Below are positions 24,824-51,618 of a DNA stretch of 64,000 bases, piece by piece. This DNA comes from Ornithinimicrobium sp. F0845 (lineage in GTDB: Bacteria > Actinomycetota > Actinomycetes > Actinomycetales > Dermatophilaceae). Every line of letters starts with the position of its first letter. Position 1 is the first letter of the stretch. Where the stretch lies: positions 171,478 through 235,477 of the forward strand of contig NZ_JALKAL010000001.1 of NCBI RefSeq assembly GCF_023015765.1, read 5' to 3'. Made by a program: the position numbers and the translations under genes. A model generated the notes under the pieces. That model was not told the DNA's origin. It was given only the letters and a program-made list of their open reading frames with translations, and searched no databases.

Positions 24824-24860
24824 CAACGTCCGGTCATCACGCCGTTTGCCCTCAGGGCCC

Positions 24861-25490
24861 TCAGGCGCTCACGACCGGGCGCAGCCACTCCAGCAGCGGA
24901 CGCACAGCGCGCCAGTCCACCCGCACCTGCTCCACCAGCCGGGGCGTGGTGACGATGTCGGCGTCCTCGACCCACCGCATCGCCGAGATCGTCCGGTGCC
25001 GCAGCAGGTCGATCCGCTCGTGGTCGCGAGGAAAGCCCCGCGGCGCGGTCTTGAGTCGGTCCCCGCCGACCTCCCACCCGGCCTCCCGCAGCTCCCCGAC
25101 CAGGCGCTCCAGCTCGGCCCCGCGCGGTCCGGCGACGTCCGTCCGAAACGCCGCCAGCACCGCCGGCTCCATCTGGTAGCACCCGCCCCCGAGACGGAAC
25201 CCCTCGGCCGACACCTCGGCATACCAGCCGGTGCGTGAGCCGGTGGTGACGTATCCACCCTGGTGCGTCTTGTAGGGGCTCTTGTCCGCGGAGAAGCGCA
25301 CGTCCCGGTTCGGCCGGAACACCTTGCCCGACCCGAACTCCTCCTCCAGCTCGGCCAGCAGCGCGGTCATCGGGCCGCGCACGCTGATCTCGTAGCGCTC
25401 GCGCTGCGCCCGCCAGAACCCGGTGCTGTTGTCCAGCTCCAGCTCGGCATAGAAGTCGGTGGCATCGTGCGGGAAACCCTCGAACGTCAT
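24861..25490 (-). CDS. DUF2461 family protein
   Basis: The 209-residue protein matches DUF2461 along its length: FEGFPHDATDFYAELELDNSTGFW, VFRPNRDVRFSADKSPYKTHQGGYV, GWYAEVSAEGFRLGGGCYQM and GDRLKTAPRGFPRDHERIDLLRHRTISAM are all diagnostic. The family is widespread and uncharacterised; no catalytic residues are established, although the conserved R-x-N-R-D-x-R-F-S-x-D-K-S-P-Y segment suggests phosphate or nucleic-acid binding. Start ATG 25490 has a leaderless -10 box. It is divergent from the GNAT gene at 25585. Confidence 0.88.
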   Translation of the reverse strand: MTFEGFPHDATDFYAELELDNSTGFWRAQRERYEISVRGPMTALLAELEEEFGSGKVFRPNRDVRFSADKSPYKTHQGGYVTTGSRTGWYAEVSAEGFRLGGGCYQMEPAVLAAFRTDVAGPRGAELERLVGELREAGWEVGGDRLKTAPRGFPRDHERIDLLRHRTISAMRWVEDADIVTTPRLVEQVRVDWRAVRPLLEWLRPVVSA

Positions 25491-25497
25491 GGGCGAC

Positions 25498-25503
25498 AGA
25501 GTA
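25498..25503 (-). promoter_or_regulatory. Leaderless promoter -10 box for the DUF2461 gene
   Basis: TACTCT on the minus strand predicts a start at 25491, one base before ATG 25490. It overlaps one GTATGCC heptamer. Confidence 0.45.
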
Positions 25504-25571
25504 TGCCGCGAGCCGGGGCCGTCGACCCGGTCACCGGCGGCGCGGGCTGGGACGGAGGCCTGTCCCGGGTG

Positions 25572-25577
25572 CAGAAT
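25572..25577 (+). promoter_or_regulatory. Leaderless promoter -10 box for the double-GNAT gene
   Basis: CAGAAT predicts a start at 25584, one base before ATG 25585. The first position is off consensus (C for T). Confidence 0.4.
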
Positions 25578-25584
25578 CGTCCCC

Positions 25585-26514
25585 ATGTCCCTCACCTGGC
25601 GAACAGTGACCCGTGACGACGTCCGTGCGGTGGTGGCGTTCACCAACCTGGTCGGCGAGCGCGACGGCACCGGGGAGGTCACCACCGAGCAGGCGACGAC
25701 CGAGATGTTCGAGGCGCCACGGTTCGACGTCTCGACCGACGTGGTCACCGTCTGGGAGGACGACGAGCTCGTGGGGCTGGGCAGCGTCTTCTGTCGCGAC
25801 ACGGTGGTCGAGGGGCGCGCGATGGTCAGCGTCCAGGGTGCTGTCCACCCCGACCACCGCGACCGCGGTCTGGGCAGCGAGCTGTTGAATCGGCTGGAGG
25901 CCCGTGCCCGCGAGCTGGCGACCGAGCGGCTCCCCGGAGAGCCCGTGCGGCTGCGCACCTCCGGCGGCCTCCCGGACTCCTCGGCCCAGCGGCTGCTGGA
26001 GGACCGCCGATACCGGCCGGACAACTACTTCATCACGATGCAGGTGCAGCTCGCAGACTGGGTCGACCAGGGTGAGGAGACCGCCGCGGTCCGCCCGGAC
26101 GCAGAGCAGCTGAGCGCCACCCGTGACGCCCACAACGACGCGTTCCGCGACCACCGCAACTTCAGCCCGATCCCGGAGGACCACTGGGAGTTCTGGGGGA
26201 AGTCCTCCACGCAGCGGCCCGAGCAGAGCCGCGTCGTCGTCGAGGGCGATCGGGTGCTGGCCTACTCCCTGGTCGCCGAGCACGAGCCCGGCGTGAGCCA
26301 CGTCGAGCTGGTGGGCACCCGCCGCGAGGCCCGCGGCCGCGGTCTGGCCCGCCAGGTGCTGCTGAGCTCGCTGCGGGCTGCCCGTGCTGCGGGTCAGCGG
26401 GTCAGCGAGCTCGAGGTCGACTCGACCAGCCCGACCGGCGCCGACCGCCTCTACGTCTCGGTCGGCTACCAGCCGGTGCGGGTTGTCTCGCGCTACGTCC
26501 GCGACGTCGACTGA
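25585..26514 (+). CDS. Tandem-GNAT acetyltransferase
   Basis: The 309-residue protein contains two GNAT domains. The first (about 1-150) has SVQGAVHPDHRDRGLGSELLNRLEARA, with an intact R-x-x-G-x-G acetyl-CoA loop. The second (about 165-305) has HVELVGTRREARGRGLARQVLLSSLRAA and TSPTGADRLYVSVGYQPV. Two-domain GNATs of this size include mycothiol synthase (MshD), but the conserved MshD signature is not obvious, so only the fold is claimed. The substrate is unknown. ATG 25585 is supported by the -10 box at leaderless spacing. It is divergent from DUF2461. Confidence 0.82.
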   Translation: MSLTWRTVTRDDVRAVVAFTNLVGERDGTGEVTTEQATTEMFEAPRFDVSTDVVTVWEDDELVGLGSVFCRDTVVEGRAMVSVQGAVHPDHRDRGLGSELLNRLEARARELATERLPGEPVRLRTSGGLPDSSAQRLLEDRRYRPDNYFITMQVQLADWVDQGEETAAVRPDAEQLSATRDAHNDAFRDHRNFSPIPEDHWEFWGKSSTQRPEQSRVVVEGDRVLAYSLVAEHEPGVSHVELVGTRREARGRGLARQVLLSSLRAARAAGQRVSELEVDSTSPTGADRLYVSVGYQPVRVVSRYVRDVD

Positions 26515-46204: not shown

Positions 46205-46813
46205 TCAGGCCATGGCCGAGGCCGGCTCGGCCTCCGGGAGCGCAGCGCGGGACCGCAGTGACAGCACCGTGATGATGAGCAGCCCGAGCGCCAGAAGCCC
46301 GGCACCGAACGAGCCGATAGCCGGGGTGGAGATCGCGCCGAGGATCATCAGAACCGCTCCGACCCGGCTGTGTCCTGCGCGCCACAGGGTGATGGCGAAG
46401 ACGATCATCGCGACCATGAAGAACACCCAGATGCCGAACATCGAGACCTGGAGCATGCCGCCGTCGGTGGCGTTGACGATCTCTGGTGCCTGCGGAGTCA
46501 GCCAGGTCAGCACGAACCCCTGCACATAGTGGCTCACCGCCTGCAGGGCCAGGGCGATCTGCACCAAGGGCACGACCCAGGCCGGGGGTGTGCCGCGCTG
46601 GCCGGCGTGAACCAGCGCGGGCACCAGGGGAATGAGCAGGGTCAGCAGGAACCAGCTGATCCCCTGGGCCCACCCGAAGGCCGGGACCGAGGCGGTGTCG
46701 CTGAACTCCTCAGCGGGAGCCAGGATCCAGAACGGGCTTAACACGAAAGCGTTCAGCACGAGGGCACCGAGGACGGCGATCACTACGGACTGCGTGCGGG
46801 TGACAGTGGCCAC
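46205..46813 (-). CDS. Small integral membrane protein
   Basis: The 202-residue protein has about six hydrophobic helices, including SVVIAVLGALVLNAFVLSPFWIL, ISWFLLTLLIPLVPALVHA, WVVPLVQIALALQAVSHYVQGFVL, MFGIWVFFMVAMIVFAITLW and GLLALGLLIITVLSL. It contains no obvious family motif; charged residues are few. GTG 46813 follows GGAAGG. Function unknown. The upstream region bears a 20-bp tandem array and palindrome copy 4. Confidence 0.75.
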   Translation of the reverse strand: MATVTRTQSVVIAVLGALVLNAFVLSPFWILAPAEEFSDTASVPAFGWAQGISWFLLTLLIPLVPALVHAGQRGTPPAWVVPLVQIALALQAVSHYVQGFVLTWLTPQAPEIVNATDGGMLQVSMFGIWVFFMVAMIVFAITLWRAGHSRVGAVLMILGAISTPAIGSFGAGLLALGLLIITVLSLRSRAALPEAEPASAMA

Positions 46814-46920
46814 GGGACTTCCTTCCGGGAGGGCCGGGCTGGTCCCGACCGCTGGGGCACCACGCTGGCGTTCCCGGTTTCCCGGGCGACAGGGGCGCAG
46901 TTCCCGATAGGGACGTGGTG

Positions 46921-47008
46921 CCGTGCCGGGTGGTCCTGCTGCGTGCCGGGTGGGCCTGCTGCGTGCCGGGTGGGCCTGCTGCGTGCCGGGTGGTCCTGCT
47001 GCGTGCCG
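46921..47008. repeat. 20-bp tandem array upstream of the membrane-protein gene
   Basis: GCGTGCCGGGTGGGCCTGCT is repeated about four and a half times with an exact 20-bp period and two single-base variants (GGTCC/GGGCC). It lies about 110-200 bp upstream of GTG 46813, where promoter or operator sequences would be expected. Confidence 0.85.
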
Positions 47009-47051
47009 CCGTGTCGCTGTCCCGGGCCCCGAGGTTGTGACCAGTGGATTT

Positions 47052-47093
47052 GGTCGCGCAAAAGATGTCGCATGCGACCAGATCCGCGTGACC
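47052..47093. repeat. 42-nt palindrome family, copy 4
   Basis: It opens GGTCGCGC, holds TGTCGCATGCGACC at its centre and closes ATCCGCGTGACC, followed by ATTTCTG as in copy 1. Orientation matches copies 2 and 3. Confidence 0.75.
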
Positions 47094-47103
47094 ATTTCTG
47101 CTG

Positions 47104-47293
47104 AGCGTTAGGGAGGGGCGCTGGGGAGGGTCGCTGAGCGTTGGGGAGGCGCTGAGCGTTGGGAGGGGAGGGGCGCTGGGCTGGGAAGGGGCGCTGGGGA
47201 GGGGCGCTGGGGAGGGGCGCTGGGCTGGGGAGGGGCGCTGGGGAGGGGCGCTGGGGAGGGCGCTGGGCTGGGGCGCTGGGCTGGGGAGGGGTG
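47104..47293. repeat. G-rich degenerate tandem array beside palindrome copy 4
   Basis: GGGGAGGGGCGCTGG and the longer GGGAGGGGCGCTGGGCTGG alternate more than ten times from the palindrome to the 3' end of the response-regulator gene. The G-strand is on the plus strand throughout, and runs of four G could form G-quadruplexes. Confidence 0.7.
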
Positions 47294-47304: not shown

Positions 47305-47931
47305 TTACTGCGCGTCGCGGGCGAGGGCGACCAGCTCGGCGCGGGTGCGGGCGCCGGTCTTGGACAGCAGGGCGCTCACGTGGTTCTGCACCGTCTTGGC
47401 CGACAGGTAGAGCGAGCGCGCGATCTCGTGGTTGTCGCGACCCTGGGCCACCAGGGTGAGCACCTCGGACTCGCGCGCCGACAACCCGGGCAGGATCGGC
47501 TCGTCGGAGGTCAGCGTGCGGCGTCGCACCGCCTCACCAACCGTGCCGCTGAGCACGGTGTCACCCTCGGCGACCGCCCGTACGGCCCGGGCGATGGCAC
47601 CGTGACCAGCCCCCTTGAGCACGTATCCCCGCGCCCCTGCGTCCAGCGCCCGGGCGACCACGGACGGTTCGTCGTGCATCGTCAGGGCGAGGATGCCCAG
47701 ATCCGGGCGGGCCGCGGAGAGGCGCCGGGCGGTGGACACCCCGTCCAGGACCGGCATGTCCAGGTCGAGGACGACCACGTCGACCTCGACGTCGGGGCGC
47801 TCGATGAGTCGCAGCAACTCGGCTCCGTCCGCAGCGACTCCGACCACCTCGATGTCGCCCGTCGACTCGAGCAGCAGTTGCAGGCCCTCCCGGAAGACCG
47901 GGTGGTCATCGGCCAGCGCGACCCTGATCAC
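47305..47931 (-). CDS. NarL/LuxR-family response regulator
   Basis: The 208-residue regulator has a receiver domain with DD at 8-9, phospho-acceptor Asp 56 in VVVLDLDMP and the conserved Lys in GYVLKGAG. The C-terminal helix-turn-helix reads LSARESEVLTLVAQGRDNHEIARSLYLSAKTVQNHV. GTG 47931 is the first codon of the domain; in-frame codons further upstream lie within the gap to the kinase fragment. It is the partner of the split kinase encoded at 47978-49485; no output genes are obvious, though the DrrAB-type exporter lies further upstream on the other strand. Confidence 0.92.
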   Translation of the reverse strand: MIRVALADDHPVFREGLQLLLESTGDIEVVGVAADGAELLRLIERPDVEVDVVVLDLDMPVLDGVSTARRLSAARPDLGILALTMHDEPSVVARALDAGARGYVLKGAGHGAIARAVRAVAEGDTVLSGTVGEAVRRRTLTSDEPILPGLSARESEVLTLVAQGRDNHEIARSLYLSAKTVQNHVSALLSKTGARTRAELVALARDAQ

Positions 47932-47977: not shown

Positions 47978-48301
47978 TCATCGCAGAGCCCCAGGTAACT
48001 CGAACCGCACGACCGTGCCCCCCTGCTCGCTATCGGCGACACTCAGCCGCCCACCCTCCTCGACGATCCTGGTTGCCATCCCCGACCGCCCCACGCCTGC
48101 CGGTGCCCCGCCCAGGCCACCACCGTCATCGGTGACCTCGGCGAGGAGGCGACTGCCCGACATACGCACGGAGATGTGCGCCCCGGTGCCGCCGGAGTGG
48201 CGGGCCGCGTTGCGGACCGCCTCGGTGATGACCAGGTATGCCGTGGCCGAGGCCTTCTCGTCGAGCGGGGGGAGCGGGTCGGGGTGGGTGGTCAGCGTCA
48301 C
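47978..48301 (-). CDS. Histidine-kinase ATPase (HATPase_c) fragment
   Basis: The 107-residue open frame contains only the ATP-binding half of a NarX-type kinase: SATAYLVITEAVRNAARHSGGTGAHISV (N box), EVTDDGGGLGGAPAGVGRSGMATRIVEEGG (G boxes) and GTVVRFELP at the end. GTG 48301 overlaps the TGA of the upstream fragment as GTGA. It directly continues the protein encoded there if the frame slips by -1. It could be a separate, coupled subunit, the product of frameshifting, or the result of a single-base deletion. Confidence 0.75.
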   Translation of the reverse strand: MTLTTHPDPLPPLDEKASATAYLVITEAVRNAARHSGGTGAHISVRMSGSRLLAEVTDDGGGLGGAPAGVGRSGMATRIVEEGGRLSVADSEQGGTVVRFELPGALR

Positions 48302-49485
48302 GGAAAACTCTCGGAGTATGCCGCCAACTGGGTGTGCAGCGCGGGGGCCAGGTCGCGGTCGGCCAGGGCGGTCGGGCCCAGGTTGTCGATGAGCCGCCGC
48401 ACCTCGGTGAGGGCACCCTCGGTCGCGGTCCCGATCGAAGCGAGCAGGTCGTCAGCGCGGGCGGCGTCCCCGGTGGCCAGGACGTTGCGGGCGGCCTCGG
48501 CGCGCATCGAGATGGACCCGAGGACCGGGCCGAGGGAGTCGTGCAGCTCGCGGCGCAGACGTTCTCGTTCCTGGTCGCGAGCCAGACGGAGCTTGTCGTA
48601 GCGGCGGCGGAGGTCCAGGTCCCACAGTTCCTCGCGCAGCACGGCGGTGCCAATGCCGATCGGCAGCAGCAGGCCAGCGACGCCCTGCAGGATCTCACCG
48701 GTCTCGCTGGCCAGGGCCAGCGGGGCGCTGATGCCCACGGCCACGGCCGCCATCGCGACCCAGCGCAGCGCGGCCCGCTCCCGGGTGCCGGCGCGGCGCC
48801 AGCGCACGACCGGTGCGGTGGCGGCCAGCAGGACCAAGCCCGGCAGCACCAGGAAGAGGGCACTGAGCAGCCCGTCGGAGATGCCGGCGAGGGCCGGCAC
48901 GCCGAACGGGTTGGTCAGCGGTGCCAGGAACGCGTCGGCGCCGAGCTCGCCGGGCAGGAGCGCGGTGACCAGCACGGTGAGGCCGGCCCAACCCAGCACC
49001 GCCCACTCGGCAATCCTCCATCGGGGGCTGGGCAGGCTCCCGGTCGGGAAGCGCAGCAGGGTCAGCATGGACAGTGCCTGGGCCGGGATCCACATCCAGT
49101 TCGTGAGCCACCCCGCAACAGGTGCCCACGGGCTGCCACGGTCCAGCAGCCACCACGCCCCGAACATCACGAAGTTGCCCAGCATCCACGCCAGGCCGGT
49201 GCCGAGCATGAGCCAGGCGATGGTGGAGCGGGGAAGCTGCTTGGCCAGGACCGTGCCCGCCACCGCGAGGCCGACCAGCCCGACCGCGAGGAGGGCCGCC
49301 GCCACGGAACTGTTGAGCTGCTCGGCCTGCTCGGTCGGCATGCTCACGACCCCGATGAGTGACGTGGCAGCGGTCAGGACGGTCAGGGCCAGACACACCG
49401 GCGCGAGCACCCGCAGCCAGGCGTCGGGCGCCGGTCGCCCGGCCGCCAGGGTGCCGGTCGCCGAGAGAGCTCGGGCGTCACTCAC
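48298..49485 (-). CDS. Sensor histidine kinase, membrane and dimerisation part (lacks ATPase domain)
   Basis: The 395-residue protein has about nine hydrophobic segments (for example LRVLAPVCLALTVLTAATSL, SSVAAALLAVGLVGLAVAG and STIAWLMLGTGLAWMLGNFV), a linker, then the HisKA_3 helix with the phospho-His in ERERLRRELHDSLGPVLGSI near residue 308. It stops after LAPALHTQLAAYSESFP, exactly where related kinases continue into the ATPase domain. The next open frame supplies that domain. The junction has a TTTT run just before the TGA. GTG 49485 is chosen over 49491 because the TAGATT -10 box puts the transcript start exactly on it. Confidence 0.8.
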   Translation of the reverse strand: MSDARALSATGTLAAGRPAPDAWLRVLAPVCLALTVLTAATSLIGVVSMPTEQAEQLNSSVAAALLAVGLVGLAVAGTVLAKQLPRSTIAWLMLGTGLAWMLGNFVMFGAWWLLDRGSPWAPVAGWLTNWMWIPAQALSMLTLLRFPTGSLPSPRWRIAEWAVLGWAGLTVLVTALLPGELGADAFLAPLTNPFGVPALAGISDGLLSALFLVLPGLVLLAATAPVVRWRRAGTRERAALRWVAMAAVAVGISAPLALASETGEILQGVAGLLLPIGIGTAVLREELWDLDLRRRYDKLRLARDQERERLRRELHDSLGPVLGSISMRAEAARNVLATGDAARADDLLASIGTATEGALTEVRRLIDNLGPTALADRDLAPALHTQLAAYSESFP

Positions 49486-49576: not shown

Positions 49577-51421
49577 TCAGCCGCACCCACCGGTCACCGG
49601 ATTGCCCTCGAACCGGTCGGCGGTCCACTCCAGGAGGTCCTCGATCAGCTCGGACTCCGGCTCGACGAGTGAGAGGTGATCGCGACCGGGATACGTCCGG
49701 TAGGCCAGGGACTGTCCCGCCGAACAGAGCCGGTCGACATACTGCCGCTGGTCAGTCGGCAGGATCAGGTCGTCCGCCTCTCCCTGGGCGAGCAGCACCG
49801 GCATGGGGAACGGGCCGGTCGGGACGTTCTCGCGGAGCCGCTCGCCGAGGGCACCCTCGGCCGGCGGCCGCGCGTAGACCGACCGGTCACGTGCCAGGGA
49901 GAATACCGAGACCACGGAGGCCAGGATGCTCGGCTCGGCCAGGCACCGCGTCGACATCTCGCGCACCAGGGTGCGGGCCGGAGCGATCACCTGCTCGTCG
50001 AGCGTGATCTCGGGGTAGTGCGCGGCGTAGGCGGCGATGACGTAGGAGGCGAAGAGCCCGCCGACGCTGGAGCCCGGCAGGCTCTCGGCGAGCGCCACGA
50101 CGTCGGCTGCCGGCGCCATCGCCACCACGCCGCGCAGGGTGAGCTCGGGGGCGTAGTCGGCGGCCAGCTGCCCGGTCCACAGCGCCGCGTGCCCGCCCTG
50201 GGAGTGACCCCAGACCACCGTGTCGGGGGAGAGGTCGACCTCGGAGAACTGCTGTGCGGCGCGGATGCCGTCGAGCACCGAGTGCGCCTCGCCCGGGCCG
50301 ATCAGGTAGGGATGGGGACCGGGTGTGCCGAGCCCGGTGTAGTCGGTGGCGACCAGCGCCCAGCCCCGGTCGACCACCTGCTCCAGGGCCGGCATCGCGC
50401 CCGCCTCGAACGGGTGCTGCAGCAGGCTCGGGGCGCACTGGGTCGCGAACCCGGTGGTGCCGTGGGCCCAGGCGATCACCGGCGGCGGCCCGGCCCCCAC
50501 GCCCTCGGGCACGAGCACGATCGCGCTGGCCGTGGCGGGGGCGCCGTCGGCCGCGGTCGTCGTGTAGAGGATGCGCCACCCGGTCGCCCCCTCCGGCACG
50601 TCGCGGGTGAACGGCTCGCTGCGCAGCAGCACGCCGGGCTCGTCCGGGACCTCGTCGGGCGTGGCGTAGAACGCGTCGACAGCCGGAGCCCCGCTGCGCG
50701 CCTGGACCCCCAGGAAGGCCGCGCCGAGGGCGAGGACCAGCGCCAGGGCCCCGCCCACCAGCTGCAGCCAGGGCCGGGCCCGTCCGGGGCCGGTCCCCGA
50801 GGCCGGGGAGTATGTCGTGCGGTCGGCTGGCCGAGCCACCGCGGGTCGGGTGGTCGCCCGCCGGACCAGCCGGATGCCGAGCATGACCAGACGCACCGCG
50901 AAGACGACCGCGACCGCCAGGAGCGTGAGGTCCGGCCAGCGGACCGCGAGGACGCCGATGACGATCTCCGCGGCGCCGAGCAGGCCGCTCGCCACCCGCC
51001 CCGGGCTTGTTTGCAGCGCGGTGACGGAGGTATCCGCCGTCCCTCCCAGTGGTGCGCCCCGCACCGCGGTCCAGATCCGGGAGGCGCCCGAGACCACGAG
51101 GACGACGCCGACGGCCAGCGCCAACAGGTCGAAGGAGGTGCGCAGCCAGACCAGGACGAGCAGGCCGAGCACCAGCCACCCCACACCGCGGGCGACATCC
51201 CACCGGGTGCGCTCCTCCCGATCGGTCAGCAACGCGACCGCACCCGTCACGACGAAGGCCGCACCCAGGGTGAGGGTCAGCGCGGAGAGCGAGGTCAGCG
51301 GCCGGGTGGCCAGGAGCACGCCGACGACGACGGCGACCACGCCCAGCACCAGCAGCAACCAGCGGGGCACCCGGTCGAGCCATGGCGCTGGCCGCTCCTG
51401 GTCAGTCGCGGACACACCCAC
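49577..51421 (-). CDS. HdeD-like (DUF308) membrane domain fused to secretory-lipase-type alpha/beta hydrolase
   Basis: The 614-residue fusion starts with six membrane helices in two triplets (residues about 20-190), the DUF308/HdeD pattern: WLLLVLGVVAVVVGVLLATRPL, ALTLTLGAAFVVTGAVALL, GVGWLVLGLLVLVWL, LLALAVGVVLVVSGASRIW and LLGAAEIVIGVLAVRWPDL. A further helix near 235 precedes an extracytoplasmic alpha/beta hydrolase (about 260-610) with VIAWAHGTTG, the nucleophile Ser in VVWGHSQGGHAA near 405, and late PVLLAQGEADDLILP and GRDHLSL giving Asp and His. This is the LIP secretory-lipase family. It probably hydrolyses acyl esters at the outer membrane face. GTG 51421 is chosen from a leaderless -10 box; GTG 51415 is possible. 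Confidence 0.8.
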   Translation of the reverse strand: MGVSATDQERPAPWLDRVPRWLLLVLGVVAVVVGVLLATRPLTSLSALTLTLGAAFVVTGAVALLTDREERTRWDVARGVGWLVLGLLVLVWLRTSFDLLALAVGVVLVVSGASRIWTAVRGAPLGGTADTSVTALQTSPGRVASGLLGAAEIVIGVLAVRWPDLTLLAVAVVFAVRLVMLGIRLVRRATTRPAVARPADRTTYSPASGTGPGRARPWLQLVGGALALVLALGAAFLGVQARSGAPAVDAFYATPDEVPDEPGVLLRSEPFTRDVPEGATGWRILYTTTAADGAPATASAIVLVPEGVGAGPPPVIAWAHGTTGFATQCAPSLLQHPFEAGAMPALEQVVDRGWALVATDYTGLGTPGPHPYLIGPGEAHSVLDGIRAAQQFSEVDLSPDTVVWGHSQGGHAALWTGQLAADYAPELTLRGVVAMAPAADVVALAESLPGSSVGGLFASYVIAAYAAHYPEITLDEQVIAPARTLVREMSTRCLAEPSILASVVSVFSLARDRSVYARPPAEGALGERLRENVPTGPFPMPVLLAQGEADDLILPTDQRQYVDRLCSAGQSLAYRTYPGRDHLSLVEPESELIEDLLEWTADRFEGNPVTGGCG

Positions 51422-51428
51422 GCCGGGC

Positions 51429-51434
51429 AGCGTA
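51429..51434 (-). promoter_or_regulatory. Leaderless promoter -10 box for the DUF308-lipase gene
   Basis: TACGCT on the minus strand predicts a start at 51422, one base before GTG 51421. Confidence 0.4.
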
Positions 51435-51618
51435 CTGGCACACCGGCGGACGGGACCGGGAAGCACTGTCGGTGCTGCGCGTCATACTCGCAGGAGAGCA
51501 CCAACCAGCTGGGTCAGCGCCGACCCGGTCCCGAAAAAAACCCGATGAGTTTCCGCGCCGGAGCAGGTCTACTGGGAAGTCGGCCTTGGAAGCGACGACG
51601 CAGAGTGAGGGAGTGCGG

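Follow-up and report, generated by a model that had tools for sequence, protein, structure and literature searches.

A sensor histidine kinase gene of Ornithinimicrobium sp. F0845 divided between two reading frames, most simply explained by the loss of one base

Results

Here we report a sensor histidine kinase gene that is spread over two open reading frames on the minus strand of a 64,000-nt stretch (referred to as the window) of the genome of Ornithinimicrobium sp. F0845 (NCBI RefSeq assembly GCF_023015765.1, contig NZ_JALKAL010000001.1, positions 171,478 to 235,477). According to the ORF list and the translations, the N-terminal fragment (49491-48298, minus strand; 397 aa) begins with GTG and ends with TGA at 48300-48298, and the C-terminal fragment (48301-47978, minus strand; 107 aa) begins with the GTG at 48301-48299, in the -1 frame relative to the first. 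The two frames overlap by the four bases GTGA, in which the start and the stop codon have two bases in common. The junction (48298-48309) reads AGT TTT CCG TGA in the first frame and GTG in the second; its T run (48307-48304) is followed by CCG and then by TGA. This is the arrangement that had been described in the original prediction, including a TTTT ending one codon before the stop; the strand, which had been left unstated, is the minus strand.

Profile searches located the HisKA_3 (DHp) domain at residues 308-376 of the first product (E = 6.3e-15; 55.9 bits, cut-off 24) and the HATPase_c domain at residues 21-103 of the second (E = 5.5e-10; 40.1 bits, cut-off 26.4). The phospho-accepting histidine expected of a HisKA_3 domain is present in the translation of the N-terminal fragment (ELHDSLG), the N-terminal part of which is hydrophobic and membrane-like as judged by eye rather than with a predictor. 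With one domain in each product, the break falls in the interdomain linker, and the proposed division between the His domain and the ATPase domain is confirmed. Since HATPase_c lies in the -1 frame, the two domains do not share a polypeptide as they do in HisKA_3 sensor histidine kinases. The adjacent response regulator (47305-47931, minus strand; 208 aa) is unbroken and consists of a receiver (Response_reg, E = 1.4e-23) and a LuxR-type domain (GerE, E = 2.3e-16).

Two further features surround the pair. Short tandem arrays occupy 46922-47291, with a 20-bp unit (4.3 copies, 97% match) within the N-terminal end of a minus-strand frame (46205-47095) and G-rich units of 13, 18 and 31 bp between this frame and the response regulator. 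On the other side, 49577-51466 (minus strand) encodes a protein of 629 aa in which DUF308 repeats (three matched stretches) lie towards the N-terminus and a secretory-lipase (LIP) domain lies at the C-terminal side; a similar frame adjoins the kinase in two genomes of the genus (G006 and G024).

A profile search of the genome contigs yielded 33 HATPase_c matches, 32 of which are in open frames no shorter than 378 codons; the exception is the split kinase, whose short frame has 157 codons from stop to stop. An internal TAG in one of the matches (L097; G000 C34:290277-290822) was rejected as a further case, as that kinase is complete (380 codons) and the profile overruns the end of its frame. 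Among the 19 HisKA_3 matches, 15 have a HATPase_c match nearby in an open frame of equal length, evidently the same frame, and three are in long frames with no HATPase_c match at the threshold (C10:85851, 652 codons; C57:163125, 456 codons; C23:43745, 450 codons), although the C-terminal end of the 456-codon frame looks ATPase-like by eye. The remaining one is the split kinase itself.

Orthologues, a comparison that had been proposed together with the original prediction, were sought in 31 genomes of the genus with the N-terminal part as query, and 25 genomes (the own genome included) gave some match at E ≤ 0.001. Close full-length orthologues were found in just three genomes besides the own (G024, G006 and G008, with 76, 72 and 58% identity). 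The ATPase half as query matched the same three genomes directly next to these hits (80, 75 and 57% identity) and, more weakly, a fourth (G009, 46%). In all three orthologues both halves of the kinase are in one uninterrupted frame (537, 504 and 566 codons from stop to stop for G024, G006 and G008), and because both fragments align collinearly with these single-frame genes, their pairing is not due to chance. None of the three shows the separation of the kinase domains that would be expected of a conserved two-protein kinase. In the nucleotide alignments, the window has a single-base gap against each of them, between a phenylalanine and a valine codon, which is the pattern of a recent frameshift mutation: intact orthologues and a difference of one base at the break. 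A family sample of 149 genomes, from which the three orthologous genomes are evidently absent, gave no match at 1e-30 except the window's own genome, and the matches listed for a wider genome collection include at least one distant partial relative (35% identity, residues 65-294).

Substitution rates were compared separately for the two halves. Between the window and L005, dN and dS were 0.182 and 0.594 for the N-terminal part and 0.124 and 0.858 for the ATPase half; the latter values are comparable to those between L005 and L006 for the same half (0.130 and 0.619). Amino-acid changes unique to the window numbered 20 in the N-terminal and 6 in the C-terminal part, against 5 and 2 for L005 and 14 and 6 for L006; the higher count of the window is taken as an earlier divergence from the other two and says little either way. 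By its substitution rates, the ATPase half is as well conserved as the remainder of the kinase, with no sign of long decay.

Further frame differences were sought by scans against the three relatives. For G006, a first scan of its ORFs against the own genome (218 kept, shadow frames included; 58,325 codons) yielded eight candidate rows, one of which is the kinase. Three others are antisense shadow frames, two at one place (window about 24855-26511) and one on the own contig outside the window, a verdict reached from one fully inspected row per place; two lie ahead of the likely start of the gene, and one is a stretch that does not resemble a coding gene. The last is a genuine frame difference on the side of G006, where the start of a symporter-like gene (L056) is out of frame; the gene is continuous in the own genome (L065, contig 1 about 152155-153741, outside the window). 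A refined scan, in which 464 kb of the own genome were set against 400 kb of G006 and which was restricted to 62 conserved gene-like ORFs of G006 (25,619 aligned codons), returned six rows, namely the kinase, two shadow rows and three of the four remaining rows of the first scan, and the kinase was the sole credible frameshift on the side of the own genome. Run in the opposite direction (60 ORFs, 24,677 codons), it returned two rows, one for the shadow place and one for the symporter-like gene; the first scan, reversed likewise (298 ORFs, shadow frames included), returned four rows, which were these two, the kinase and a short N-terminal piece outside the window. Extension by 200 kb on each side gave no new candidate rows. 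The kinase was again the sole frameshift in the scan against G024 (20 ORFs, 10,673 codons), whose ORF set overlaps with that of G006, and its break was also seen against G008, a small set in which just two ORFs had partners (691 codons). One-off frame differences are thus similarly rare on both sides, which fits ordinary mutation or ordinary error.

Short base runs are easy sites for loss during replication and for miscounts in sequencing, and a ribosome may also slip on them. At a G + C content of 71% (over 464 kb), TTTT occurs only 26 times in the 127,307 codons of 293 gene-like ORFs (0.058% of 12-nt stretches) and 11 times in the T_TTT register. That so rare a run stands at the break is noteworthy and unlikely to be accidental, although the comparison was made post hoc.

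Discussion

The three orthologues are unsplit and have one base more at the junction, so the split is this genome's own and stems from the loss of one base in a formerly continuous gene. The simplest history consistent with the sequences would be a continuous ancestral gene from which one base was lost either in the lineage of the window or in its assembly. Of the three explanations offered originally (a single-base deletion, programmed frameshifting or a true two-subunit kinase), the comparison with the orthologues favours the first.

We consider it most likely, with some confidence, that the gene carries a real and recent frameshift mutation by which the function of the sensor kinase is reduced or lost. 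A HisKA_3-type sensor kinase gene, still in one piece in the relatives, would have lost one base in the own lineage and with it its continuous frame. Translation would then end one codon (CCG) past the phenylalanine codon, giving a membrane and DHp protein without an ATP-binding domain, and the ATPase half would persist in an open frame of its own, with the former valine codon as its GTG. Kinase function should be lost or strongly reduced, with residual activity conceivable should translation restart at the overlapping GTG and the separate halves associate in trans. That the ATPase half is as conserved as the rest is expected of a recent event, but its constraint would fit a recent mutation, an artefact or a retained function alike. 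We infer that the base is missing in the organism and not merely in the assembly.

The domain content and order and the adjacent regulator are those of sensor kinases that combine HisKA_3 and HATPase_c with a LuxR-type regulator (NarL/DesK-like kinases). The orthologues are single-chain members of this type; in the present gene, in contrast, the two kinase domains are in different frames. Like other frameshifted bacterial genes, the kinase gene differs by a single base from intact orthologues and both of its halves are still conserved, whereas the position of the break in the interdomain linker and the overlap of start and stop are unlike such genes in general and make a residual function conceivable.

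The second most likely explanation, which we regard as possible but clearly less probable, is a sequencing or assembly error: the gene of the organism would be intact, and the consensus would have dropped one base beside the T run. In its favour are the draft state of the assembly (59 contigs), the rarity in this genome of the homopolymer at which the gene breaks, the normal constraint on the two halves and the three intact orthologues; an error would fit the junction itself as well as a real mutation does. However, the absence of a second credible frameshift on the own side among the 62 conserved ORFs compared with G006 argues against a local assembly with frequent errors, and a run of four bases is short for most sequencing platforms.

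A working two-chain kinase, in which termination and reinitiation at the overlap of stop and GTG would yield the DHp and the ATPase part as separate polypeptides acting in trans on the neighbouring LuxR-type regulator, is improbable. The GTGA overlap with an intact domain on either side would allow it. Where a stop and a start codon overlap, the translation of the two genes can be coupled (PMC6728339), and for overlapping pairs coupling by termination and reinitiation is described (PMC6728339, PMC10666635). According to PMC3591291, EnvZ, split into separate HisKA and HATPase polypeptides, kept activity in vitro, and 1,556 of 42,417 HisKA proteins in SMART lack HATPase. The same source describes CheA3 and CheA4 of Rhodobacter sphaeroides, whose phospho-accepting and ATP-binding parts are on separate frames as in the present case; they are, however, a biochemically characterised pair, whereas the present split is found in one genome and traced to the loss of one base. 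Coupling at the GTGA may occur, but the arrangement is found in none of the three orthologues. The overlap itself is no evidence of design, since a GTG valine codon followed by the AC- codon of threonine becomes GTGA automatically when one base is lost, and [AG]TGA ends occur in 70 of the 293 gene-like ORFs anyway. The Shine-Dalgarno-like pairing upstream of the GTG is of ordinary strength (equalled or surpassed at 52% of 10,682 internal GTG or ATG codons), and no other HATPase_c match among the 33 of the genome is on a short separate frame. There is likewise little probability that the lost base in the linker has only just given rise to a split kinase whose DHp and ATPase parts are translationally coupled and still signal.

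Programmed -1 frameshifting at TTTT, which would produce a full-length kinase beside the truncated one, is very improbable: T_TTT, scarce in gene-like ORFs, permits re-pairing after a shift of one base, and slippage would give a product with the length of the orthologues at the junction, but the site is not an X_XXY_YYZ heptamer, the junction has neither a stimulatory structure (89 nt from 6 nt past the T run fold no better than shuffles, z = 0.05, in a test that covers folds other than pseudoknots) nor a strong Shine-Dalgarno-like element upstream (-4.7 kcal/mol, about the background median), and there is no conserved slippery site, as none of the three orthologues, which read straight through, has a TTTT in this gene. 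A literature search found no paper that combines histidine kinase and programmed frameshifting in its title or abstract.

The locus is thus unlikely to encode a purpose-built two-part kinase; most likely, it holds an ordinary gene that was disrupted recently, or else the sequence contains a slip. This is mainly a matter of annotation: the two-component system should be flagged as having a frameshifted kinase rather than listed as a novel split sensor. Should both chains nevertheless cooperate, the locus would offer a recent natural case of the birth of a split kinase, and would show how a single step can give rise to a two-protein kinase.
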